Positions 10,580 through 22,175 of a stretch of 64,000 nucleotides of DNA are shown here, piece after piece. Numbering within the stretch: position 1 is the stretch's first letter; each line of letters starts with the position of its first letter. The DNA is from Terriglobales bacterium (GTDB lineage: Bacteria > Acidobacteriota > Terriglobia > Terriglobales > Acidobacteriaceae), in NCBI GenBank assembly GCA_035651995.1, contig DASRER010000046.1:1-64000 (forward strand), written 5' to 3'. A program made the position numbers and the translations under genes. The notes beneath the pieces were generated by a model. That model did not search any database. It saw only the letters and a program-made list of their open reading frames with translations, and had not been told where the DNA came from.

Positions 10580-11560
10580 ATGACTCCCTCTCCCGACGCT
10601 AAGACCTTGCTGTTGCTCAAGCCCCGCGGCTTCTGCGCCGGGGTGGTCCGTGCCATCGATATCGTCCGCATCGCCCTCGACGCCTTCGGCCCGCCCATCT
10701 ACGTCCGCAAGGAAATCGTCCACAACCGCTACGTGGTTGAGGAGCTGACCGCCAAGGGCGCCGTCTTCGTTGACAGCGTGGCCGAGGTGCCCTACGGCGA
10801 GCGCGTTATCTACAGCGCGCACGGGGTCTCGCCCGAGGTCCGCGAGGCAAGCCAGGCGCGCAAGCTGCGCGTCATTGACGCCACCTGCCCGCTCGTGACC
10901 AAGGTCCACGTCGAGGCGGTGAAGTTCGCCCGCGAAGGCTACTCGCTCATCCTCATCGGCCATCGCGACCACGACGAGGTCATCGGCACTCTGGGCGAAG
11001 CGCCCGCCGTGACCCAGGTGGTCGGCTCGCCCGAGGAAGTGGACGCCATCAGCGTCCCCGACCCGAACCGCGTGGCCTACCTCACCCAGACCACGCTTTC
11101 GCTCGACGAAGCCAAAGACGTGATCGAGGCCCTGCAGCGCAAGTTCCCCAACATCAAGGGGCCCGCCGCGCAGGACATCTGCTACGCCACCGAGAACCGC
11201 CAGGTGGCCGTCAAGCACGTCGCCGAAGAGGCCGAACTGGTGCTGGTCGTCGGTTCCGACAACAGCTCGAACTCGAACCGCCTGGTCGAGGTCTCGCAGA
11301 ACCTGGGCACGCGTTCGTACCTGATCGAAAACTACCGCGCCATCAAGCCGCAGTGGCTCGAAGGCGTGAAGACCATTGCATTGACCGCTGGCGCCTCCGC
11401 CCCCGAGTGCCTGGTGGAAGAGGTTGTCGAGTTCCTTCGTAGCGCCGGCTACACCAACCTGCGCGAGCTCGAAGTCATGCCCGAGCACGTGCGGTTCGGT
11501 CTCCCCCCTGAGATCGTGGAGGCAATCGCCGCCGCGCCCTCAGTCGCCACCGCGGAATGA
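10580..11560 (+). CDS. ispH: 4-hydroxy-3-methylbut-2-enyl diphosphate reductase
   Basis: IspH (LytB) makes IPP and DMAPP in the last step of the MEP pathway using a [4Fe-4S] cluster. The cluster ligands are Cys19 (RGFCAGV), Cys103 (DATCPLV) and Cys201 (DICYATENRQ). Substrate-binding motifs SAHGVS and GHRDHDEV are present, and the length (326) is normal. ATG at 10580 has GGAG 5 nt upstream. A TATACT -10-like box sits 9 nt before the start, so the leader is extremely short. The stop overlaps the shc start (ATGA), tying isoprenoid precursor supply directly to hopanoid synthesis. Confidence 0.97.
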   Translation: MTPSPDAKTLLLLKPRGFCAGVVRAIDIVRIALDAFGPPIYVRKEIVHNRYVVEELTAKGAVFVDSVAEVPYGERVIYSAHGVSPEVREASQARKLRVIDATCPLVTKVHVEAVKFAREGYSLILIGHRDHDEVIGTLGEAPAVTQVVGSPEEVDAISVPDPNRVAYLTQTTLSLDEAKDVIEALQRKFPNIKGPAAQDICYATENRQVAVKHVAEEAELVLVVGSDNSSNSNRLVEVSQNLGTRSYLIENYRAIKPQWLEGVKTIALTAGASAPECLVEEVVEFLRSAGYTNLRELEVMPEHVRFGLPPEIVEAIAAAPSVATAE

Positions 11561-13581
11561 ACGGAATGGACGACAGCTCGCTGACCCGCCGGCCGGCGGA
11601 AATCCTGTTCGGCAAGATTGACGACATGCGCAGCCGCGTGGCGGCTGCCGCCGACGCCTCGCGCCGCTTCCTCTTCTCGCTCCAGTCCGAGGAAGGCTAC
11701 TGGTGCGGCGAACTGGAAGCCGACGCGACGCTGGAATCCGACTACATCCTGCTGCACACGCTGCTTGGCACCGGCGCCGAAGGCCGCATGCGCGCCGCGG
11801 CGAACTGGATCCTCCGGCACCAGAACACCGATGGCGGATGGAGCCTTTACCCGGGCGGCCCCTCGAATATCAGCGCATCGGTGAAGGCGTATTTCGCGCT
11901 CAAGCTCGCCGGCTACAAGGCCGATCATCCGGCGCTCGGGCGCGCCCGCGAAAAAGTGCTGGAACTGGGCGGCGTCACGCAGGTCAACACCTTCACCAAG
12001 ATTTATCTCTGCTTCTTCGGCCAGTACGACTACGACGCCGTCCCGGCCATCCCGCCGGAGATCGTGCTGTTTCCCAAGTGGTTCTGGTTCAACCTGTACG
12101 AAATCTCGTCATGGTCGCGCGCCATTCTGGTGCCGCTGGCCATCGCCTACGCCAAGAAGCCGTTCAAGAAGATTCCCGACGAGATGGGCGTGGAAGAGCT
12201 CTACCGCCCCGGAACGCGCACGCGCAGCGGCATGCGCCTGCCGTGGGACAAGAAGCTCGTCAGCTGGCGGAATTTCTTCCTCGTGGCCGACCGCATGACG
12301 CACATGTTCGAGCGCGTGCACGTGCGGCCGCTGCGCTCGATCGCGCTGAAGGTCGCCGAGCGCTGGATGCTCGAGCGCATGGAAATGTCTGACGGCCTGG
12401 GCGCCATCTTCCCGGGCATCATGAATTCCATCATCGCGCTGCGCTGCCTGGGCTACTCGCTCGACGATCCGCAGCTCATCCGCGCGCTCGATGAATTCGA
12501 GAACCTCGGCATCGAAGAGCCGGGCGATCCCGCCGCATCCGACGAAGCGCGCCGCGAGCCCACCTTCCGCATGCAGCCGTGCAAGTCGCCGGTGTGGGAC
12601 ACGGCCTACGCGCTGTTCGCGCTGGCCGAATCCGGCGTCTCTTCGCGCGATCCGCGCCTGCTCAAGGCTGCCGATTGGCTCCTGAGCAAGGAAGTGCGCC
12701 ACAAGGGCGACTGGGCGGTGAAGGCGCGCAACGTCGAGCCGGGCGGCTGGTACTTCGAGTTCAACAACGAGTTCTATCCCGACGTGGACGACTCCGCCAT
12801 GGTGCTGCTCGCGCTGGAGCGCGTGGACAACCCGCGCGAACGCTATCAGCACGAGGTGGCGCAACGCGCCATCGCCTGGATCTACGCCATGCAGTGCAAG
12901 GACGGCGGCTGGGCGTCGTTCGACAAAGACAACGACCGCATGGTCTTCCAGCACATCCCGTTCGCCGACCACAACGCCATGCTCGATCCGGCCACGGTCG
13001 ACATTACCGGCCGCGTGCTGGAAATGCTGGCCGCTTACGGCCACAACCGCGACGAGAAGCAGATCGAGCGCGCGCTCACCTTCATTCGCAAGCAGCAGGA
13101 GTCCGATGGTTCGTGGTTCGGGCGCTGGGGCGTGAACTATCTCTACGGCACCATGCAGGTGCTGCGCGGGCTTGACGCCATCGGCGTAGACCACCACGAG
13201 CCGTTCGTGCAGCAGGCCGCCGAGTGGGTGCGCATGGTGCAGAACCACGACGGCGGCTGGGGAGAAACTTGCGGCTCCTACGACGATCCAAACACTAAAG
13301 GCGCAGGCCCGAGCACGCCCTCGCAGACCGCATGGGCGGTGCTGGCGCTGCTCGCCGCCGGCGACACGCGCAGCGATTCGATCACCCGCGGCGTCGCATA
13401 TTTATTGAAGACGCAAAAGAAAGACGGCGCCTGGCGCGTGCCCGACTATACCGGCACCGGCTTCCCCCGCGTCTTCTACTTGAAGTACCACCTGTACGAG
13501 ATTTATTTCCCGCTGCTGGCGCTCACGGCATACGCGAAAGCGCTGGGGAGCGCGGAAGCCGGTGGAAGCACCGGGCTTTAG
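11557..13581 (+). CDS. shc: Squalene-hopene cyclase
   Basis: This 674-residue monotopic membrane enzyme cyclises squalene to hopene and hopanol. The catalytic acid motif is DVDDSA at residues 409-414. Several QW repeats are visible (QNTDGGWSLY, MQCKDGGWASF, QNHDGGWGETCGSY, QKKDGAWR), along with the C-terminal YLKYHLYEIYFPL segment. Length is typical. The start codon overlaps the ispH stop by 4 nt. The stop codon TAG lies in the loop of a CACCGGGC-TTTA-GCCCGGTG hairpin, a repeat that appears to have supplied the end of the reading frame. It is the core enzyme of the hpn operon. Confidence 0.97.
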   Translation: MNGMDDSSLTRRPAEILFGKIDDMRSRVAAAADASRRFLFSLQSEEGYWCGELEADATLESDYILLHTLLGTGAEGRMRAAANWILRHQNTDGGWSLYPGGPSNISASVKAYFALKLAGYKADHPALGRAREKVLELGGVTQVNTFTKIYLCFFGQYDYDAVPAIPPEIVLFPKWFWFNLYEISSWSRAILVPLAIAYAKKPFKKIPDEMGVEELYRPGTRTRSGMRLPWDKKLVSWRNFFLVADRMTHMFERVHVRPLRSIALKVAERWMLERMEMSDGLGAIFPGIMNSIIALRCLGYSLDDPQLIRALDEFENLGIEEPGDPAASDEARREPTFRMQPCKSPVWDTAYALFALAESGVSSRDPRLLKAADWLLSKEVRHKGDWAVKARNVEPGGWYFEFNNEFYPDVDDSAMVLLALERVDNPRERYQHEVAQRAIAWIYAMQCKDGGWASFDKDNDRMVFQHIPFADHNAMLDPATVDITGRVLEMLAAYGHNRDEKQIERALTFIRKQQESDGSWFGRWGVNYLYGTMQVLRGLDAIGVDHHEPFVQQAAEWVRMVQNHDGGWGETCGSYDDPNTKGAGPSTPSQTAWAVLALLAAGDTRSDSITRGVAYLLKTQKKDGAWRVPDYTGTGFPRVFYLKYHLYEIYFPLLALTAYAKALGSAEAGGSTGL

Positions 13582-13635: not shown

Positions 13636-14730
13636 ATGGCTGTCCCGATTTCACAGATGTGGACGGTAGCCACTTACGTCCTGCGCCAGCGTATGGCGGG
13701 ACGCAAGCGGTACCCGCTCACCCTGATGCTGGAGCCGCTGTTCCGCTGCAACCTGGCCTGCGCCGGCTGCGGCAAGATCCAGTATCCGGCCCACATCCTC
13801 AAGTCGCAGCTCACCCCGGAAGAGTGCTTCCGCGCGGTTGACGAATGCGGCGCGCCAACCGTCGCCATCCCGGGCGGCGAGCCGTTGCTTCACCCGCAGA
13901 TCGCTGAGATTGTCGCCGGCCTGGTCGCGCGCAAGAAGTACATCTACCTGTGCACCAACGCGCTGCTGCTGAAAGAAAAACTCCACCTGTTCACGCCGAC
14001 CAAGTACCTCACCTTCTCTGTCCACATGGACGGCCAGCGCGAGCACCACGACTTTTCCGTCTGTCTGGAAGGCGGATACGACAAGGCCTACGAAGGCATC
14101 AAGGCGGCGCTGGAGCGCGGCTTCCGCGTGACCACCAACACCACGCTGTTCGAAGGCGCCGATCCCGAATCGGTGCGCGCATTCTTTGACGAGATGATGG
14201 ACCTGGGCGTCGAGGGCATGATGCTCTCGCCCGGCTACACCTACGACAAGGCGCCCGACCAGGAGCACTTCCTCAGCAAGAAGAAGACCCGCCGCCTGTT
14301 CCGCCACATCCTGTCGAACCGCAGCCCGCGCTGGAAGTTCAACATGAGCCCGCTGTTCCTCGAGTTCCTCATGGGCCGGCGCGATTACAACTGCACGCCG
14401 TGGGGCATGCCCACGTACAACATCTTCGGCTGGCAGAAACCCTGCTATCTCATGCAGGACGGCTACGCCGACACGTTCCAGGAGCTGCTCGAGACCACCG
14501 CCTGGGAGCGCTACGGCGCCGAGCACGGCAATCCCAAGTGTGCCAACTGCATGGTCCACTCTGGTTTTGAGGCCAGCGCGGTCAACGACACGTTCGGTTC
14601 GCTGCGCGGCTTCCTGGCCACAGTGCGCGCCTCGCTGTTCAACAGCTATCGCGACCCCGACGTCGGCCCGCCGCCGGCACCCGCTGCGAGCCACGGCCCG
14701 CTCGTGCAGATTTCTACGCCTCAGGCATAA
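13636..14730 (+). CDS. hpnH: Hopanoid biosynthesis radical SAM protein HpnH (adenosylhopane synthase)
   Basis: HpnH joins the 5'-deoxyadenosyl radical to diploptene, giving adenosylhopane, the first side-chain step. The radical SAM cluster motif is C38-x3-C42-x2-C45 (RCNLACAGC). The GGE motif (PGGEPLL) follows, then a C-terminal region with further Cys residues (GNPKCANCMVHSGFEA) typical of this family. The length of 364 is slightly longer than average because of a Pro/Ala-rich tail. It starts 54 nt after shc, just beyond two repeat hairpins. The enzyme is cytosolic or membrane-associated and O2-sensitive. Identity is secure from sequence and from context between shc and hpnA/hpnG. Confidence 0.95.
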   Translation: MAVPISQMWTVATYVLRQRMAGRKRYPLTLMLEPLFRCNLACAGCGKIQYPAHILKSQLTPEECFRAVDECGAPTVAIPGGEPLLHPQIAEIVAGLVARKKYIYLCTNALLLKEKLHLFTPTKYLTFSVHMDGQREHHDFSVCLEGGYDKAYEGIKAALERGFRVTTNTTLFEGADPESVRAFFDEMMDLGVEGMMLSPGYTYDKAPDQEHFLSKKKTRRLFRHILSNRSPRWKFNMSPLFLEFLMGRRDYNCTPWGMPTYNIFGWQKPCYLMQDGYADTFQELLETTAWERYGAEHGNPKCANCMVHSGFEASAVNDTFGSLRGFLATVRASLFNSYRDPDVGPPPAPAASHGPLVQISTPQA

Positions 14731-14733
14731 CCA

Positions 14734-15180
14734 ATGTCCGGTCGTGAAGCTTCCAACCTGCATCCGAACTCGACCGCCGCGAAAGCCGCGTCCGAAGAGG
14801 ATGAGAAGTTAGGCGTCGAGCACGAGAACCTGGAAGGCTGGATTCCGGCGCTCGCCACCGAAGACGAGGTCCGTGTGGCGCTCGAGAAAGCCTTCGACTA
14901 TCGCGGCGACCTCGTCATCACGCTCAAGGACGGGACCAAGATCGAGGGCTACGTCTTCGACCGCCGCGCCGATTCGCCCGCGCTGGCCGACTGCATCGCC
15001 CGCGTCATTCCGAAGAACGAGCGCGCCAAGGTGAACGTCCGTTACAGCGACATCGCCGCCCTCGCCTTCGGCAAAGACACCGCCGCCGGCAAGAGCTTCG
15101 AAGCCTGGGTGAAGAAGTACAAAGAGAAAAAGGCAGCCGGCGAGAAGAACATCGGGCTGCACCCCGAGCCGCTGGATTGA
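14734..15180 (+). CDS. Conserved protein of the hopanoid operon, function unknown
   Basis: This 148-residue, apparently soluble protein has no signal peptide or membrane segment. A charged N-terminal tail (residues 1-45) precedes a small beta-rich domain, RGDLVITLKDGTKIEGYVFDR, which recalls an Sm-like strand pattern ('control of a charged group by a short beta barrel' is only a fold guess). A basic helix rich in Lys (KSFEAWVKKYKEKKAA) follows. It starts 3 nt after hpnH and ends where the hpnA leader begins, so it is cotranscribed with hopanoid genes. I do not recognise a named family. A regulator or assembly factor is as likely as an enzyme, since no catalytic residues stand out. Confidence 0.8.
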   Translation: MSGREASNLHPNSTAAKAASEEDEKLGVEHENLEGWIPALATEDEVRVALEKAFDYRGDLVITLKDGTKIEGYVFDRRADSPALADCIARVIPKNERAKVNVRYSDIAALAFGKDTAAGKSFEAWVKKYKEKKAAGEKNIGLHPEPLD

Positions 15181-15308: not shown

Positions 15309-16298
15309 TTGAAACGAGTTTTCATCACCGGTGCCACCGGCTTCGTGGGAAGCCACGTCGCGCAGGCCCTGGCCGCGCAAGGCGCCGAACTGCGCCTGCT
15401 CGTCCGCTCGTCCTCACGCACGCAGAACATCGAAGGCCTGAACGCCGAGCGCGTCATCGGCGACCTCACCGATCCCAAAACCTACGCGAGCGCGCTCGCC
15501 GGATGCGACGCCGTTTTCCACGTGGCCGCCGACTATCGTCTGTGGGTGCGCGATCCCGAAGCCATGTACCTGGCCAACGTGGAAGGCACGCGCCGCCTGA
15601 TCGAGGCTGCACTGGTCGCCGGTGTGGGCCGCATCGTCTATACGTCAAGCGTCGCCACCATGGGTTTCGGCTCCGACGGCCGCATCGCCGACGAAGACTC
15701 GCCGGTTTCGGTGGCCGACATGGTGGGCCACTACAAGCGCTCCAAGTTCCTCGCCGAACAGGTCGCGCTCGAAGCGGGACGCAGCGGCGCAAACGTCGTC
15801 ATCGTCAACCCGACCACGCCCATCGGCGAGCAGGACATCAAACCCACGCCCACCGGCCGCATCATCGTGGACTTCCTCAAGCGCAAGTTTCCCGCCTACG
15901 TGGACACCGGGCTGAACCTGGTGGACGTGGCCGACGTCGCCCGCGGACACCTCGCCGCCTGCGAGCGGGCCAGGCCCGGCGAACGCTACATCCTGGGAGG
16001 CGAAAACCTTACGTTGAAGCAGCTCCTCGACCGGCTCGCCGCCATCACCGGCCTGCCTTCGCCCAAGGTGCGCGTGCCGCATGGGGTTGCCATGGCCTTC
16101 GCGACGTTCGACGAGACCTTCACCGGCCGCATCCGCAAGCGCGAACCGCGCGCCACGCGCGAAGCCGTGCGCATGGGCCGCAAGAAGATGTGGGCGTCAT
16201 CGGCCAAGGCGGAAAGGGAGCTGGAATGGAAGGCCGGCCCGATCGACGACGCCCTGCGCCGCGCCATCGCCTGGTTCCGGGAGCACGGCTATGCCTAG
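15309..16298 (+). CDS. hpnA: Hopanoid-associated NAD-dependent sugar epimerase/dehydratase HpnA
   Basis: This 329-residue extended short-chain dehydrogenase has the NAD-binding motif GATGFVG at its N terminus and the catalytic YxxxK (HYKRSK). The TSSVATMG segment carries the catalytic Ser. HpnA is commonly found in hopanoid operons, but its precise reaction is unsettled; a sugar-head-group modification is usually assumed. TTG at 15309 is chosen because it gives the family N terminus MKRVFITGATG. The longer frame from 15177 would translate the bipartite repeat and a GTGAAAC-type tract. It overlaps hpnG by 8 nt. Confidence 0.9.
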   Translation: MKRVFITGATGFVGSHVAQALAAQGAELRLLVRSSSRTQNIEGLNAERVIGDLTDPKTYASALAGCDAVFHVAADYRLWVRDPEAMYLANVEGTRRLIEAALVAGVGRIVYTSSVATMGFGSDGRIADEDSPVSVADMVGHYKRSKFLAEQVALEAGRSGANVVIVNPTTPIGEQDIKPTPTGRIIVDFLKRKFPAYVDTGLNLVDVADVARGHLAACERARPGERYILGGENLTLKQLLDRLAAITGLPSPKVRVPHGVAMAFATFDETFTGRIRKREPRATREAVRMGRKKMWASSAKAERELEWKAGPIDDALRRAIAWFREHGYA

Positions 16299-17013
16299 GG
16301 TCTCCATCGTGACGGCCATGCCCACCGAAATCTGGCCGCTCATCCGCGGATGGGAGCAGCGTGAGTTCGAGCATGCCGGGCGCCGGTACGAGTTCTACGA
16401 GCACGGCGACGAGGTTGCGCTCTGCGGCGGCATCGGCTACGAAGCGGGGCAGCGCGCCGCCGAAGCCACCATCGCCTACGCGCGTCCCGACCTGATCATC
16501 GCTGCCGGCCTCGCCGGCGGGCTCAAGCCTGAGTGGACGCTCGGCAAGACGCTCACCCCCGCCATCATTATCGAAGAAGCTACCGGCCAGCGTTATGCCA
16601 CGCTGCGCGGCGCCGGGACCGTGGTCAGCTCGCGCGTGATCGCCGGCGTCGAACTCAAGCGCGAACTCGCCGCGCGTTTCTCGGCCGACATCGTGGACAT
16701 GGAGGGCGCAGCCATCGCCTCGGTCGCCGCGAAGCACGGCATCCCCCTGCTGGCTGCAAAGGCGGTGTCCGATGCGCTCGACTTTCCGCTGCCGCCGCTC
16801 CAGCCTTTCGTGGACCAAGACGGCCGCTTCCAGGCCGCCCGCTTCACCCTCCACGCCGCCGTGCGCCCGGCGTGGTGGCCGCTCATCTGGAAACTCAAGC
16901 GCCACAGCGCCGCCGCCGCCGAGGCCCTCGCCGAGCTGCTCACCACGATGATTCGCGACACCCACGCCGGCCCGCGCAGCAGCTACAATTCTGTATCGGC
17001 GCAAAGCAGCTGA
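16291..17013 (+). CDS. hpnG: Hopanoid-associated nucleoside phosphorylase HpnG
   Basis: This 240-residue PNP/UDP-family phosphorylase removes adenine from adenosylhopane to give (phospho)ribosylhopane, the second side-chain step. Visible motifs are the N-terminal SIVTAMPTE, the GLAGGLKPEW loop, VDMEGAAIA (ribose-binding Met-Glu) and SDALD (base-recognition Asp). ATG at 16291 overlaps the end of hpnA by 8 nt; upstream in-frame extension runs through hpnA. The stop TGA overlaps the ATG of the next gene. Length is usual. The assignment uses both the family motifs and the position directly after hpnA, three genes after hpnH. Confidence 0.9.
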   Translation: MPRVSIVTAMPTEIWPLIRGWEQREFEHAGRRYEFYEHGDEVALCGGIGYEAGQRAAEATIAYARPDLIIAAGLAGGLKPEWTLGKTLTPAIIIEEATGQRYATLRGAGTVVSSRVIAGVELKRELAARFSADIVDMEGAAIASVAAKHGIPLLAAKAVSDALDFPLPPLQPFVDQDGRFQAARFTLHAAVRPAWWPLIWKLKRHSAAAAEALAELLTTMIRDTHAGPRSSYNSVSAQSS

Positions 17014-18152
17014 TGGCCACCATCACCCAACCCGGAGCGGGCGCCGCCTCGCGCGCCATCCCGGCCACCATGACCGCCGCCGTCTATCGCGGCGTCAATG
17101 ACGTGCGCATCGAGACCGTTCCCGTTCCCGAGATCGGCCGCGGCGAGGTGCTCATCCGCGTGCACACCTGCGGCATCTGCGGCACGGACCTGAAGAAGAT
17201 CTCGACCGGCTCGCACTCGGCCCCGCGCATCTTTGGTCACGAAACCGCTGGAACCATTGCCGCTGTAGGGGAAGGTGTCACGGCCTTTCGGCCGGGCGAT
17301 CGCGTGATGGTCTTCCACCACATCCCCTGCGGGCGCTGCTACTACTGCTCCAAGAAAGTTTTCGCCCAGTGCCCCACGTACAAGAAGGTCGGCGTCACCG
17401 CCGGCTTTGAGCCCTCGGGCGGCGGCTTCGCCGAATACGTGCGCGTCCTGCCCTGGATTGTGGGAGATGTCGGCGAGCGCATGCCACAGCGTGGCGTGGT
17501 GCGCATCCCTGACGGCGTCAGCTTCGAGCAGGCATCGTTCGTGGAGCCGGTCAATACCTGCCTGAAGGCAATCGAACAGCTGCAACTTCAGCGTGGTGAG
17601 AGCGTTCTGGTCATGGGACAAGGCCCCATTGGCCTGCTGCTGGCCCTGCTGGCGCGGCGGGCCGGAGGCGAGGTAATCACTTCCGATTTGTTCGTCCCAA
17701 GGCTTAAAATAGCTGCATCGCTGGGCATTCAGGCGACCATCGACGCCTCGGGCGCCAACGTGGTCGACCGCGTGAGGGAACTGACTGGCGGACGCGGCGC
17801 CGACGCGGTCTTGCTCGCCGTCGCCGGTAACAGCTTGATTCCGGTTGCCTTGGACGCGGCGCGTCCGGGCGGGCGGGTGATGCTGTTTGCCCAGACGGTG
17901 CGCAGCGAAGCGCGTTTCGATCCGGCTGCCGTTTGCGTGGACGAGAAGACGCTGCTGGGCTCCTATAGCGCGTCGGTGGACTTGCAGGAAGAGTCGGCCC
18001 GCCTGGTCTTCAGCGGCGAACTCGACCTGGAGCGGCTGATTACCCACCGCTTCCCGCTGGCGCAGGCGGTACAGGCCCTGGAGTTGGCTGCGCATCCGCG
18101 GCCGGACTCGATGAAGGTAGTCATCCAGCCTTCCTTGAGTGTCGTACCGTAA
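17013..18152 (+). CDS. Zinc-dependent medium-chain dehydrogenase in the hopanoid operon (first copy)
   Basis: This 379-residue MDR-family alcohol/polyol dehydrogenase has the catalytic zinc ligands Cys in TCGICGTD and His-Glu in FGHE. The structural zinc is held by a Cys quartet (CGRCYYC...C), and the NAD(P) site contains GQGPIGLLLALLA. Sorbitol and threonine dehydrogenase-like members oxidise or reduce sugar alcohols. The ATG overlaps the hpnG stop, so it is translationally coupled to the enzyme that makes ribosylhopane. Reduction of ring-opened ribosylhopane to bacteriohopanetetrol lacks a well-established enzyme, and this gene is a good candidate. That role is inference from position and chemistry only. 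Confidence 0.85.
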   Translation: MATITQPGAGAASRAIPATMTAAVYRGVNDVRIETVPVPEIGRGEVLIRVHTCGICGTDLKKISTGSHSAPRIFGHETAGTIAAVGEGVTAFRPGDRVMVFHHIPCGRCYYCSKKVFAQCPTYKKVGVTAGFEPSGGGFAEYVRVLPWIVGDVGERMPQRGVVRIPDGVSFEQASFVEPVNTCLKAIEQLQLQRGESVLVMGQGPIGLLLALLARRAGGEVITSDLFVPRLKIAASLGIQATIDASGANVVDRVRELTGGRGADAVLLAVAGNSLIPVALDAARPGGRVMLFAQTVRSEARFDPAAVCVDEKTLLGSYSASVDLQEESARLVFSGELDLERLITHRFPLAQAVQALELAAHPRPDSMKVVIQPSLSVVP

Positions 18153-18168
18153 TTGAAAGGCACTTATT

Positions 18169-19221
18169 TTGAACGGCAAGAAGATGACCGCAGCCGTCCT
18201 CTACGGTAAAGAGGACGTAAAGATTGAGCGCGTCCCCATTCCTCGCGTCGAAGACGGCGAGGTCCTGGTCAAAGTCGAAGTTGCCCTCACCTGCGGCACC
18301 GACCTGAAGGTCTACCAGCGCGGCTACCACGCGCGCATGATCGTTCCTCCCGCGCTGTTCGGGCACGAGCTGGCCGGCGTGGTTGCGGAAACCGGCCATG
18401 GGGTCACTAACTTCCGCCGCGGCGAGCGCGTGGTCGCGCTCAACTCGGCTCCGTGCGGCATGTGCTTCTACTGCGCGCGCCACCAGGAAAACCTCTGCGA
18501 AGACCTGCTGTTCAACAACGGCGCCTACGCCGAGTTCATCAAGATTCCGCGCCGCATCGTCGAGAAGAACATGCTGGTGATTCCTCCGCAGATGTCCATG
18601 GAGGAAGCGCCCATCGTCGAGCCGCTGGCCTGCGTCGTCCGCGGCCTGGAAGAAACGCACGCCCAGATCGGCGACACCGTCGCGGTGATCGGCGCCGGAC
18701 CGGTCGGACTGATGTTTGTCCAGGTCGCCCGGCTTGCCGGCTGCAACGTGGTGGCGGTCGTGAAGCACGACGAGCAGGTCAGCGCCGCCAAGCGCATGGG
18801 CGCGCACGACGTCGTGCAGATCACCAAGATCGAAGACCCCATTGCCGCCGTGCGCTCGCTCACGCCCGAGCGCCGCGGCGCCGACGTCGTCATCGAAGCC
18901 ATCGGCCGCCCGCAAGGCTGGGAGATGGCCGTGGACATGGTCCGCAAGGGCGGCACGGTGAACTTCTTCGGCGGATGCGCCAGCGGCACCAAGGTCAATC
19001 TCGACACCAACCGCCTGCACTACTCCGAGATCACGCTGAAAGCAACGTTCCACCACACGCCCGCCACCGTGCGCCGCGCCTTCGCGCTGCTGGCGGAGAA
19101 GAAAATTCGCAGCAACGATTACATCACCGGCGAGGCGCCGCTCTCGCGCCTGCAACAGGTGTTGCAGGCCATGCTCAAGCGCACCGGCGAAATCAAGACC
19201 GCCATCATCCCGGGCCACTGA
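18169..19221 (+). CDS. Zinc-dependent medium-chain dehydrogenase in the hopanoid operon (second copy)
   Basis: This 350-residue MDR dehydrogenase has LTCGTD and FGHE catalytic zinc ligands, a structural-zinc region CGMCFYCARHQENLC, and the nucleotide-binding motif GAGPVGLMFVQVA. It is similar in design to its upstream neighbour but clearly diverged, so this is probably an old paralogue and not a recent duplication. TTG at 18169 is supported by AAAGG 8 nt upstream; the internal ATG at 18184 is too far from that site. It ends immediately before the GTG of the first squalene synthase gene. Two adjacent dehydrogenases suggest consecutive steps, a heteromer, or different cofactors. The substrate is unknown. 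Confidence 0.85.
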   Translation: MNGKKMTAAVLYGKEDVKIERVPIPRVEDGEVLVKVEVALTCGTDLKVYQRGYHARMIVPPALFGHELAGVVAETGHGVTNFRRGERVVALNSAPCGMCFYCARHQENLCEDLLFNNGAYAEFIKIPRRIVEKNMLVIPPQMSMEEAPIVEPLACVVRGLEETHAQIGDTVAVIGAGPVGLMFVQVARLAGCNVVAVVKHDEQVSAAKRMGAHDVVQITKIEDPIAAVRSLTPERRGADVVIEAIGRPQGWEMAVDMVRKGGTVNFFGGCASGTKVNLDTNRLHYSEITLKATFHHTPATVRRAFALLAEKKIRSNDYITGEAPLSRLQQVLQAMLKRTGEIKTAIIPGH

Positions 19222-20274
19222 GTGGGAGCAGTGGCGATACGCATGAGGCAGCCCCCGCCATTGCAGCTCGCCGCCGCGTATTCGGTGTGCCGAGGCATCA
19301 CCCGCAGCAACGCGCGGAATTTCTATTGGGCCTTTCTCGTGCTCCCGTCGGAGAAGCGCGACGCGCTGGCCGCCGTCTATGCCTTCATGCGGCACTCCGA
19401 CGACATCGCCGACGACACCACGCTGCCGCCGCAGGAAAAAGCCGCGCGCCTCGAGGCCTGGCGCGCCGAGTTGCATCGCGTCCTCGACGGCGGAGCCACC
19501 GATGATCCGGTGCTGTTCGCGCTCGCCGACGCCCAGCGCCGCTTCGAAATCCCCATCCAGCGCCTCGACGAGCTCATCACCGGCACCGCGATGGATGTGT
19601 CCGGGTCCGTGGGCGCCCCACCCAACCAAGCTGTGGGCGCCCCACCCTCTTCCGGCGCGCACGTTGCGCCGGAAAGGGCGGGAAATCCGGCGGCTGGCAC
19701 AACAGAACCCACGGTCCTCTACAGGAACTTCGACGAACTCCGCAATTACTGCTACCACGTGGCCTCGGTCGTCGGACTCGTCTGCATCAAGATCTTCGGA
19801 TACCGCGATCCCGCCGCCGAACCGCTCGCGGAGAAAACCGGAATCGCCTTCCAGCTCACCAACATCATCCGTGACGTGAAAGAAGATGCGCTGATGGGCC
19901 GCATCTACATCCCGGCCGACGACCTGGCGCGCTTCCAGCGCACGGCCGCGGAACTGGCGCCGGCGGCGCCGGGCAACGGCTTCGATGCGTCGCGCTTCCG
20001 CGGCGTGCTCGAACTGGAGACCTTCCGCGCGCGCGATCACTACCAGGCCGCGCAGAAGCTCCTGCCCCTCATCGACGAAGACTCCCGGCCCGCCCTCTGG
20101 GTGCTGGTGGAGATCTATCGCCGCCTGCTGGAGAAGATCGTGGCCCGCAACTACGACGTCTTCACCGATCGCATCCGGCTCTCCGCGCGAGAAAAAGGCC
20201 TGCTGCTGCTGCGCGGCCTCTGGCTGCGGCTCACGCGCTGGGCGATCACGCCGGCGCCGCGACCCTCGGCATGA
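19222..20274 (+). CDS. hpnD: Squalene/phytoene synthase family protein, HpnD-like, with in-frame repeat insertion
   Basis: This prenyl-diphosphate head-to-head synthase would condense farnesyl diphosphate toward squalene. The N-terminal RNFYWAFLVLP and YAFMRHSDDIADD (first Asp-rich motif) resemble HpnD (presqualene diphosphate synthase), although HpnC cannot be excluded. The second motif is NIIRDVKED. Between MDVSG and TVLYRNFDEL there is an extra segment of about 30 residues encoded by DNA holding two copies of GTGGGCGCCCCACCC plus a hairpin, a repeat also found between genes at 3960. It lies in a probable loop, so the enzyme may tolerate it. The start is uncertain among GTG 19222, GTG 19231 and ATG 19243. 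The stop overlaps the next start (ATGA). Confidence 0.85.
   Translation: MGAVAIRMRQPPPLQLAAAYSVCRGITRSNARNFYWAFLVLPSEKRDALAAVYAFMRHSDDIADDTTLPPQEKAARLEAWRAELHRVLDGGATDDPVLFALADAQRRFEIPIQRLDELITGTAMDVSGSVGAPPNQAVGAPPSSGAHVAPERAGNPAAGTTEPTVLYRNFDELRNYCYHVASVVGLVCIKIFGYRDPAAEPLAEKTGIAFQLTNIIRDVKEDALMGRIYIPADDLARFQRTAAELAPAAPGNGFDASRFRGVLELETFRARDHYQAAQKLLPLIDEDSRPALWVLVEIYRRLLEKIVARNYDVFTDRIRLSAREKGLLLLRGLWLRLTRWAITPAPRPSA
19609..19680 (+). repeat. Intergenic-type repeat inserted in frame in the squalene synthase gene
   Basis: GTGGGCGCCCCACCC occurs at 19609-19623 and 19633-19647. A hairpin follows in which CCGGCGC pairs with GCGCCGG, flanked by CCACCCT and AGGGCGG. The copy at 3960 has the same layout. 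Confidence 0.8.
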
Positions 20275-21251
20275 CCGCGGCGCTGAATGAACTGCTGCGC
20301 GGGACCTCGCGTTCGTTCTACCTGACCTTGCGCGTGCTGCCCGCCGCCGTGCGTCCCCAGATCAGCCTCGCGTACCTGCTCGCCCGCACCGCCGACACCA
20401 TCGCCGACACCGACGCTCTGCCCCTCGACCAGCGCCTGGCCGCCTTGCGCGAGTTTCGCGAAGCGATCCTGGATTCCGCGCCGCCTCACAGCTTCGACAG
20501 CTTTGCCGCCCAGCAAGCCTCGCAAGCAGAGAAGACCCTGCTGCAACGTCCGCCCGAAGCGCTCGCCGCGCTTTCCCGCCTTTCACAGCCGGACCAGCAA
20601 CTCATTCGCGAAGTCCTTTCCACCATCATCAGCGGTCAGGAACTCGACTTGCTGCGCTTCGGCGCAAACAAAGGGGGCGCCGGCGCCGCTCTCGACACCG
20701 ACGCCGAGCTTGACGACTACACCTACCGCGTCGCCGGCTGCGTGGGCGAGTTCTGGACCAGGCTTTGCCGCGCGCACCTGTTTCCCCGCGCGCCGCTCAA
20801 TGACGAACAGCTCATTGCCGACGGCGTCCGCTTCGGGAAGGGCCTGCAACTTGTGAATGTACTGCGCGACCTGCCCGCCGACCTCGCGAATGGCCGGTGT
20901 TATCTGCCGCGCGAATCTCTTCGCGCCGCTGGTCTGGAGCCCGCGACCCTGCTCGCGCCGGAGAACGAAGCGAAGTTTGTGCCGCTCTACCGCGGCCATC
21001 TCGACATCGCCGAACAGCACCTCAGCGCCGGCTGGCGCTACACCACCACGCTGCCCTACGGCCAATTCCGCGTCCGCCTGGCCTGCGCCTGGCCCATCTT
21101 GATAGGACTGAAGACCATTCAGAAGCTGCGCGCCTCGAGCGTTGCGCAGATCAGGGAACGCGTGAAGATCTCACGCGGCGAAGTGCGGGCGATTGTTGCC
21201 AGGTCGCTGCTTGCGGCGCCATTTCCTCTGCTGTGGCGGCGCCTTGCGTAG
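20271..21251 (+). CDS. Squalene synthase-like protein (farnesyl-diphosphate farnesyltransferase type)
   Basis: This is a second prenyl-diphosphate synthase, 326 residues. The N terminus LLRGTSRSFYLTLRVLP and AYLLARTADTIADT resembles single-enzyme squalene synthases of the Methylococcus/eukaryote style more than HpnC or HpnD. The second Asp motif is NVLRDLPAD, followed by NGRCYLP. Such enzymes can take FPP through presqualene diphosphate to squalene with NADPH. The ATGA overlap with the preceding gene shows coupling. No hpnE (the FAD enzyme needed by the HpnCDE route) occurs in this window, which fits a direct synthase, although hpnE could lie elsewhere. HpnC is the alternative name an automated annotation may give. 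Confidence 0.83.
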   Translation: MTAALNELLRGTSRSFYLTLRVLPAAVRPQISLAYLLARTADTIADTDALPLDQRLAALREFREAILDSAPPHSFDSFAAQQASQAEKTLLQRPPEALAALSRLSQPDQQLIREVLSTIISGQELDLLRFGANKGGAGAALDTDAELDDYTYRVAGCVGEFWTRLCRAHLFPRAPLNDEQLIADGVRFGKGLQLVNVLRDLPADLANGRCYLPRESLRAAGLEPATLLAPENEAKFVPLYRGHLDIAEQHLSAGWRYTTTLPYGQFRVRLACAWPILIGLKTIQKLRASSVAQIRERVKISRGEVRAIVARSLLAAPFPLLWRRLA

Positions 21252-21373: not shown

Positions 21374-21760
21374 CTACCGCGCCAGCAGCGCCACCCCGCC
21401 CGCCACGAACGCCGCCGCCATCCACCGCCGGCCGTCCACGCGCTCGTGCAGAAAAATGCGGGCGGCCACCGCGTTGGTGACGAACGTCAGCGACGCCGAG
21501 GCCGGCACCACCAGCGACACGTCGCCCCACGACAGCGCCAGCAACAGGCTGAAGTATCCGATGGCGAGGAACCCCACGCCCATCCAGAAGCGCGCGTTGC
21601 TCACGACCGCGCGCGCCGCGCCGAGCACGCCGCGTGCCCGCGTGATCTCGCCCATGTCGCCCACCTGCTGCATCGCGCCGGCGATCAGGATTTCGCCCGC
21701 CGTCGAAGAGAGCACGATGGCGGCGATTCCGCCCCACGTATACGCGTCACGGACGTCCAT
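21374..21760 (-). CDS. Half-size DMT/EamA-like membrane protein (second of a pair)
   Basis: This 128-residue protein has four predicted transmembrane helices (about residues 8-28, 55-72, 77-95 and 105-125), typical of the small drug/metabolite transporter fold (SMR, ArnE/ArnF style). Motifs include GYFSLLLALSWGDVSLVVPAS and a C-terminal AFVAGGVALLAR. ATG at 21760 starts 14 nt before the end of the upstream partner gene, so the two are coupled, which argues for a heterodimer. ArnE/ArnF flip lipid-linked sugars. The location directly after hpnJ suggests a lipid or hopanoid-related substrate, but that is inference. Confidence 0.78.
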   Translation of the reverse strand: MDVRDAYTWGGIAAIVLSSTAGEILIAGAMQQVGDMGEITRARGVLGAARAVVSNARFWMGVGFLAIGYFSLLLALSWGDVSLVVPASASLTFVTNAVAARIFLHERVDGRRWMAAAFVAGGVALLAR

Positions 21761-22175
21761 GCAGCTCCTCGCCCGCGGCGATGCGCGCCCGCTCGTGCTT
21801 GGTGGTGTAGGAAGGTCCTCCGGCAACGAAGCCCACCCCGGCGGTGATCAGCAAAATCCCCGCCCAGCGCGTCACGGTCACCGTTTCACCGAGGAAGAAG
21901 ACCGAGAGCAGCGCCACGACAACGTAGCCGAACGACGTTGCCGGCAGGACGAACGTCAGGTCGGCCCAGGAAAGCGCGGAAGTGTATCCGGAGAGAAAGC
22001 CGATGAGCAGCAGCGTGCCGCCGGCCACCCAGGGGTTGAGCAGAGCGCCCAGCGCGCTGCCCAGGTTGTGGAGGGAGATCGCGCCAACGTCCTTCATGCC
22101 GCGCGAAAGCATCGTGTCGCCGACCGCGCCCAGCAGGACGATGGTGGCCAGCAGCAGGTATCGGCGGAGCGTCAC
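21747..22175 (-). CDS. Half-size DMT/EamA-like membrane protein (first of a pair)
   Basis: This 142-residue protein has four predicted transmembrane helices and a short hydrophilic C-terminal tail (SYTTKHERARIAAGEEL). The segments SGYTSALSWADLTFVLPATSFGYVVVALLSV (core pattern SWADLTFVLPA) match the repeated LSWGD.SLVVPAS motif of the following gene, so the pair probably arose by duplication and works as a heterodimer. Its ATG overlaps the hpnJ stop by 4 nt (22172-22175), and its end overlaps the next start by 14 nt. Three-gene coupling with hpnJ points to a transporter for the product of that pathway or a related lipid. The substrate is unknown. Confidence 0.8.
   Translation of the reverse strand: MTLRRYLLLATIVLLGAVGDTMLSRGMKDVGAISLHNLGSALGALLNPWVAGGTLLLIGFLSGYTSALSWADLTFVLPATSFGYVVVALLSVFFLGETVTVTRWAGILLITAGVGFVAGGPSYTTKHERARIAAGEELHGRP

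Follow-up and report, generated by a model that had tools for sequence, protein, structure and literature searches.

A tandem pair of zinc-dependent dehydrogenases in the squalene/hopanoid operons of Terriglobia-like Acidobacteriota

Hopanoids, the bacterial relatives of cholesterol, are widely used as molecular fossils. The conversion of ribosylhopane to bacteriohopanetetrol still had no established enzyme in 2025 (PMC12583986), and the same source sees no obvious neighbour candidate in alphaproteobacterial hpn clusters beyond hpnA, hpnB, hpnL and hpnM. Sinninghe Damste et al. 2017 (PMC5462960) proposes hpnA for the step while noting counter-evidence, and hpnA is reported there as non-essential in Burkholderia. 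That work also describes the closest known genes: ug1, which follows hpnG in cluster C of Acidobacteria, and ug2, which encodes ~350 amino acids, is often annotated as a Zn-binding alcohol dehydrogenase, and precedes hpnC in cluster A. Its excerpts are inconsistent on ug2, placing it in all SD1 and SD3 acidobacteria and elsewhere describing SD3 members without ug2 in the cluster. Here, we analyze a 64,000-nucleotide stretch of a Terriglobales bacterium (GCA_035651995.1, contig DASRER010000046.1, positions 1 to 64,000; hereafter the window), whose hopanoid operon contains two zinc-dependent MDR dehydrogenase genes, MDR1 and MDR2. An earlier, sequence-only reading had proposed them as candidates for the missing reductase, and its premise that the step lacks a well-established enzyme held through 2025.

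We find that MDR1 and MDR2 form an old tandem pair, inherited together and kept in the squalene/hopanoid operons of Terriglobia-like Acidobacteriota. By position and description they correspond to ug1 and ug2, as MDR1 follows hpnG, MDR2 precedes the squalene synthase genes, and MDR2 is Zn-alcohol-dehydrogenase-like and of ~350 amino acids; the linkage of these genes to hopanoid loci has therefore been known since 2017 (PMC5462960). What is new is a tandem, co-inherited pair, typed by motif as NAD and NADP enzymes, that is present where shc was not found and is better matched to HpnD, and in the open-licence PubMed Central literature we found no earlier account of the cofactor typing, the tandem pairing, the shc-less occurrence or the HpnD match. 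Our preferred explanation, offered tentatively, is that the pair may be a lineage-specific accessory redox couple of polyol type, tied to the squalene/hopanoid pathway, and not a general ribosylhopane-to-bacteriohopanetetrol reductase. It is probably a lineage-specific helper because many hopanoid makers lack it and it is present in some bacteria that yielded no hopanoid genes. The two genes are:

17013..18152, + strand: MDR1, zinc-dependent MDR dehydrogenase of 379 amino acids; ATG start, NAD-type cofactor motif TSDLF, Glu-type catalytic zinc site, structural Cys4
18169..19221, + strand: MDR2, zinc-dependent MDR dehydrogenase of 350 amino acids; TTG start, NADP-type cofactor motif VVKHD (no Asp), Glu-type catalytic zinc site, structural Cys4

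Both open reading frames are intact and lie between hpnG and the squalene synthase genes, as had been read from the letters, and the overlap then noticed is a TGATG junction in which the hpnG stop TGA (17011-17013) and the MDR1 ATG have one base (A) in common. MDR2 directly abuts the start of the HpnD-like gene that follows. Its own start is most likely the TTG at 18169, because several relatives have a similar (V/L)NGK start ahead of the common MTAAVLYG; an in-frame ATG is also present at 18184.

We surveyed the pair in 149 genomes drawn evenly from Acidobacteriota (completeness at least 85%). MDR1 orthologs (at least 51% identity) occur in 21 of them and all other matches are at most 40%, a sharp split. 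Fifteen of the 16 sampled genomes of the window's own family carry MDR1 (at least 63% identity to the window protein), always on the same strand and no more than 0.8 kb downstream of hpnG, an adjacency that is beyond chance. A wider set consisted of the best 80 of at least 538 confirmed relatives from a scan of named genomes. There, 77 loci have at least 1000 bases downstream of MDR1, and in 72 of these MDR2 follows within 1 kb; the five exceptions (L137, L147, L150, L153, L163) cluster together in the MDR1 tree as a single Edaphobacter/Granulicella group. Among loci with room, 54 of 65 have a squalene-synthase gene downstream (limit 3500 bases), and 48 of 72 have hpnG ahead of MDR1 in the same orientation; ispH is upstream in many. 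The conserved hpnG-dehydrogenase adjacency proposed for checking is supported in close relatives. Some hpn or squalene gene is present in 71 of the 80 loci, and two of the other nine (L130, L138) are short or cut beside MDR1.

In nine family genomes MDR1 and MDR2 lie apart: MDR1 is beside hpnG in all nine, and MDR2 is ~2 kb from HpnE in eight, no HpnE having been found in the ninth (G093). In 8 of the 80 loci ispH, shc, hpnA or hpnG is on the opposite strand, and in seven of these the pair is co-directional with a squalene gene. From these two kinds of break-up we conclude that MDR1 and MDR2 are tied more firmly to each other than either is to hpnG. In some groups (f27, L118), hpnA immediately precedes MDR1, and hpnG is at another site. 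Trees were made by a quick method from the window, 37 of the 80 loci and additional loci (50 MDR1 rows and 47 MDR2 rows, 31 of the 37 loci giving an MDR2 of usable length). They recover the same main groups for the two proteins and leave the deep order unresolved.

Both proteins score far above the gathering thresholds of PF08240 (ADH_N) and PF00107 (ADH_zinc_N), and their GroES-like and Rossmann zinc-binding domains, supported by structure matches, place them in the zinc-dependent MDR superfamily. All aligned MDR1 and MDR2 orthologs retain the catalytic Cys, His and Glu (C, GHE and EP motifs), along with the four Cys of the structural site; these are the catalytic and structural zinc ligands usual in MDR enzymes. 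The EP motif supplies Glu as third ligand, and a ketose reductase is among the top sequence and structure matches, beside alcohol and threonine dehydrogenases, so that the polyol-dehydrogenase kinship and zinc MDR identity first read from the letters are borne out. Glu in this position is typical of enzymes that act on secondary alcohols, rather than of aldehyde reductases. The AlphaFold models, with mean pLDDT values of 85 and 91, have their structural matches among polyol, threonine and alcohol dehydrogenases, which confirms the fold and gives no information on substrate.

At the end of the second Rossmann strand, Asp is found in 19 of 20 MDR1 orthologs and Glu in the other, while 13 of 14 MDR2 orthologs have no Asp at the same position. 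Read against the NADP-type ketose reductase 1e3j and sorbitol dehydrogenase, the motif suggests that MDR1 is NAD-dependent and MDR2 NADP-dependent. In our preferred explanation, the pair would have been recruited from zinc MDR enzymes of polyol-dehydrogenase type. Acting on an intermediate that bears a polyol or a ketone, MDR1 would use NAD+ to oxidise a secondary hydroxyl, MDR2 would use NADPH to reduce a carbonyl, and the NAD and NADP cofactor pools would set the direction of the couple. This conjectural step would be accessory to, or tied to, the squalene/hopanoid pathway.

Tracking with squalene genes was assessed in a hand-chosen panel of 31 genomes. Eleven had been picked for carrying MDR1 and the agreement figures use the other 20, which were mostly chosen for HpnH and fall in few deep clades, so that Fisher values are descriptive only. 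Presence of the MDR2 family (at least 45% identity) agrees with that of HpnD in 17 of the 20 genomes, of HpnE in 15 and of HpnH in 10. HpnD is here counted as present from a best score of 200 bits upward, a threshold set after the scores were seen; under the curated HpnD cut-off the agreement is 16 of 20 by hand count. The three disagreements are G072 (HpnD, with an MDR2 relative of just 42%), G028 (a 220-bit HpnD match, perhaps a phytoene synthase) and G121 (MDR2 without HpnD). Seven genomes of the panel have an hpn row but no ortholog of the pair. In none of them does HpnE or HpnD exceed its cut-off; near the row, six contain a distant member of the squalene-synthase family (29-35%), and none was seen in G098. 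Five metagenome-assembled genomes picked through the pair (G149, G151-G154; draft completeness not stated) have no HpnH or Shc match. One of these, G149 of phylum UBP4, carries MDR1-MDR2-hpnC-hpnD-hpnE in one run, with HpnD just under cut-off, and the one further genome covered from its phylum is without match; G151 and G153 have HpnD and HpnE over cut-off.

Gene distribution favours the alternative that the sequence-only reading had kept in reserve, the isoprenoid or squalene end of the pathway. That the pair acts there with HpnC, HpnD and HpnE, or on a squalene-derived product, is somewhat unlikely. The panel agreement, the unbroken G149 run, the opposite-strand loci and the squalene genes of G151 and G153 all suit such a role. 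Against it, no known step needs the pair, the HpnC-HpnD-HpnE route having been shown with three enzymes only (PMC5462960), and its kin are polyol enzymes. Moreover, both genes are present in the window genome, in four f27 genomes and in G093, in none of which HpnE was found; in the case of the window genome this also counts against our preferred explanation. That the pair replaces HpnE was rejected as the main reading, since HpnE exceeds its cut-off in 13 of the 15 family genomes that carry MDR1.

Further points weigh against an accessory couple tied to this pathway. The redox mechanism is read from the cofactor motifs alone, which have exceptions in G035 (an MDR2 with Asp) and G086 (an MDR1 with Glu), and the distribution argument rests on few deep clades. 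G152 and G154 have no HpnD match and no HpnE over cut-off, and no squalene or hopanoid gene accompanies the pair in the stretch covered of six Vicinamibacteria-like loci and one locus from Armatimonadota, so that the pair can serve something else. An Armatimonadota genome contains an hpn cluster, squalene genes and the pair, all apart. G121 has an MDR2 ortholog (55%) and no HpnH, Shc, HpnD or HpnE match.

The central suggestion of the sequence-only reading, that one or both enzymes could reduce ribosylhopane, did not survive the survey as a general role in making bacteriohopanetetrol. In the 149-genome sample, 17 of the 37 genomes with HpnH lack MDR1 and 13 lack even a 45% MDR2 relative. Conversely, 20 of the 21 MDR1 genomes have HpnH and the remaining one has shc and an HpnG match, so that the association of HpnH with MDR1 is strong but is not a requirement. 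Four genomes (G028, G065, G083, G109) have a shc-hpnH-hpnA-hpnG row with neither MDR gene beside it, and no MDR1 match above 37% or MDR2 match at E 1e-50 was found in them. The f45 genomes G098, G140 and G148 have the same row without the pair beside it and a distant pair (~31-38% identity) elsewhere, and G054 has a shc-hpnH-hpnG row with neither hpnA nor the pair beside it. G087 and G113, which we tentatively take to be Chloracidobacterium, have just a 45-46% MDR2 relative, with no hpn gene in the 20 kb around it, and no MDR1 match above 36%. Chloracidobacterium thermophilum reportedly produces bacteriohopanetetrol as well as its cyclitol ether, and ug2 is said to be absent from it (PMC5462960).

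In the opposite direction, the five genomes that have the pair and no HpnH or Shc match fit the report of an SD6 strain with hpnC, hpnD and hpnE and without shc (PMC5462960). G149 and G152 do yield HpnG-profile matches, of which that in G149 looks by eye like an ordinary nucleosidase; such enzymes are among the matches of this profile, which was not used as hopanoid evidence outside clusters. A general reductase would be present wherever hpnH and hpnG are and absent where the side chain is not made. The pair is neither, the latter on the evidence of G149 and G151-G154, although the side-chain chemistry of most genomes concerned is not known. Ten shc-hpnH-hpnG rows that have no adjacent pair were covered. 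In nine of them hpnA is within about 1.1 kb of hpnG, which suggests that across these loci hpnA is its more general neighbour; counter to this, eight further loci (f27 and f30 genomes, G159) have an isolated hpnG.

A narrower version, in which MDR2 with NADPH, perhaps together with MDR1, would reduce the open-chain aldehyde to bacteriohopanetetrol in Terriglobia while an unrelated enzyme does so elsewhere, is quite unlikely. The NADP-type motif of MDR2 would suit a reductive step, and polyol kinship, the unfailing position of MDR1 after hpnG in the family and the near-constant company of HpnH agree with it, as do the report of ug2 in all SD1 and SD3 acidobacteria (PMC5462960) and an enzyme still unnamed in 2025 (PMC12583986). 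The 17 HpnH genomes without MDR1, the case of Chloracidobacterium, the pair's occurrence where no hpnH or shc match was found, and a Glu zinc ligand that usually goes with secondary-alcohol rather than with aldehyde chemistry speak against it. The pair is a concrete, deletable Acidobacteriota candidate for the ribosylhopane step, but the survey excludes it as the general answer.

It is distinctly improbable that the pair serves an unrelated polyol or sugar metabolism and is merely co-transcribed with hopanoid genes. Four plasmid-borne MDR2 relatives that we viewed do stand beside sugar kinases, a sugar transporter, or Gfo/Idh/MocA and sugar-phosphate isomerase genes. The nearest plasmid relative, from Rhodococcus opacus (45%), has the same motifs except for an NAD-type Asp and adjoins an FGGY kinase, a DeoR regulator and a class II aldolase, a setting that would fit a polyol dehydrogenase. 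A plasmid search for close MDR1 relatives (E 1e-40) returned 5 records, none above 38% identity, and the single context viewed was not telling. In the Vicinamibacteria-like loci, too, the pair is away from hpn genes; a native role there in proline or nucleoside catabolism was given no weight, as the neighbours were named by eye from sequence starts and vary. Against a passenger, each half stays with hopanoid or squalene genes when the operon splits, and the family member G007, rated 100% complete, has no ortholog of HpnG, MDR1 or MDR2 and none of HpnD or HpnE, through loss or an assembly gap. Its ispH-shc-hpnH genes (L067) are on a 10.7 kb contig running into open reading frames that resemble transposase genes by eye.

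Other side-chain tailoring, that is, redox epimerisation or keto-polyol formation on the C5 polyol or on an HpnJ-handled sugar or cyclitol head group, is very doubtful: an NAD-type and an NADP-type enzyme would suit oxidation then reduction, hpnJ is close by on the other strand in the window, and the best NCBIfam match of MDR1 is a cyclitol enzyme, far under its cut-off, but no HpnJ (at least 45% identity) was found in the UBP4 locus or in three f27 loci fetched around hpnH. We know of no unusual hopanoid stereochemistry in this group, and made no search for it. A bolder extension of the accessory couple is unlikely: the pair would be a so far unrecognised two-cofactor redox module of triterpenoid lipid biosynthesis, movable as a five-gene unit with hpnC-hpnD-hpnE, whose NADPH arm in Terriglobia would be a lineage-specific last bacteriohopanetetrol enzyme or would make an unrecorded stereochemical change in the side chain.

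The remainder of the window's hopanoid operon is on the + strand, in the order ispH, shc, hpnH, a small unassigned gene, hpnA, hpnG, MDR1, MDR2, an HpnD-like gene and a second squalene-synthase-family gene:

10580..11560, + strand: ispH, NCBIfam IspH models over cut-off; operon head here and in many relatives
11557..13581, + strand: shc, squalene-hopene cyclase; TIGR01507 748 bits, cut-off 431
13636..14730, + strand: hpnH, adenosylhopane synthase; TIGR03470 540 bits, cut-off 225
15312..16298, + strand: hpnA, SDR 'hopanoid-associated sugar epimerase'; TIGR03466 500 bits, cut-off 368
16291..17013, + strand: hpnG, divergent; TIGR03468 69 bits, cut-off 187; PF01048 phosphorylase domain
19222..20274, + strand: HpnD-like squalene/phytoene synthase family gene; TIGR03465 259 bits, just under cut-off 279; PF00494
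20271..21251, + strand: second squalene/phytoene synthase family gene; PF00494

The mechanical open reading frame of hpnA starts at 15177 and its profile match at ~15312. hpnG falls far under its family cut-off and was named from position, best profile match and phosphorylase domain; among relatives it has 22-27% identity to the first row. Because HpnG of this lineage is low-scoring and widely varying, profile-based surveys may miss it. HpnE, the next gene in most relatives, is not downstream in the window, and none is over cut-off in the window genome (best 61 bits, cut-off 283), so that the two squalene-synthase-family genes at 19222-21251 present a reduced squalene route, as in f27 genomes. 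The gene at 14734-15180 (+ strand; 148 amino acids), between hpnH and hpnA, has no Pfam match; small open reading frames after hpnH in other family genomes look alike by eye, and it is probably the ug3 of PMC5462960. Directly after hpnJ are two overlapping small membrane-protein genes (21374-21826 and 21747-22175, - strand) with weak EamA matches under cut-off, and G034, G047 and G087 have similar-looking pairs near hpnJ (by eye). This membrane-protein pair resembles the ArnE/ArnF flippase subunits and is possibly a hopanoid flippase. In two Acidobacteriota families without close MDR1 or MDR2 orthologs, hpn clusters (L069, L070) lie beside mevalonate-pathway-like genes (by eye).

Compared with known systems, MDR1 and MDR2 are set apart from their relatives by sequence and by setting. 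In the excerpts of PMC5462960, ug1 is not named a dehydrogenase, and neither a pairing with ug2 nor a link to a reductase is drawn. The best NCBIfam profile matches of MDR1 and MDR2 are L-threonine 3-dehydrogenase (TIGR00692, NF003808) and scyllo-inosose 3-dehydrogenase (NF041097). Both identities were rejected, as MDR1 scores 164-165 bits and MDR2 166-171 bits against cut-offs of 458 and 380 for the former, and 176 and 155 bits, respectively, against 450 for the latter. Sorbitol dehydrogenase (1pl6), the NADP ketose reductase 1e3j and galactitol-1-phosphate dehydrogenase (4a2c) share with the pair the fold (TM-scores of about 0.7-0.9), the zinc sites with the Glu ligand and the structural Cys4, but identity is just 21-33% in the listed structure alignments. 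Whereas polyol-type MDR dehydrogenases belong to sugar catabolism, MDR1 and MDR2 stand in a lipid operon.

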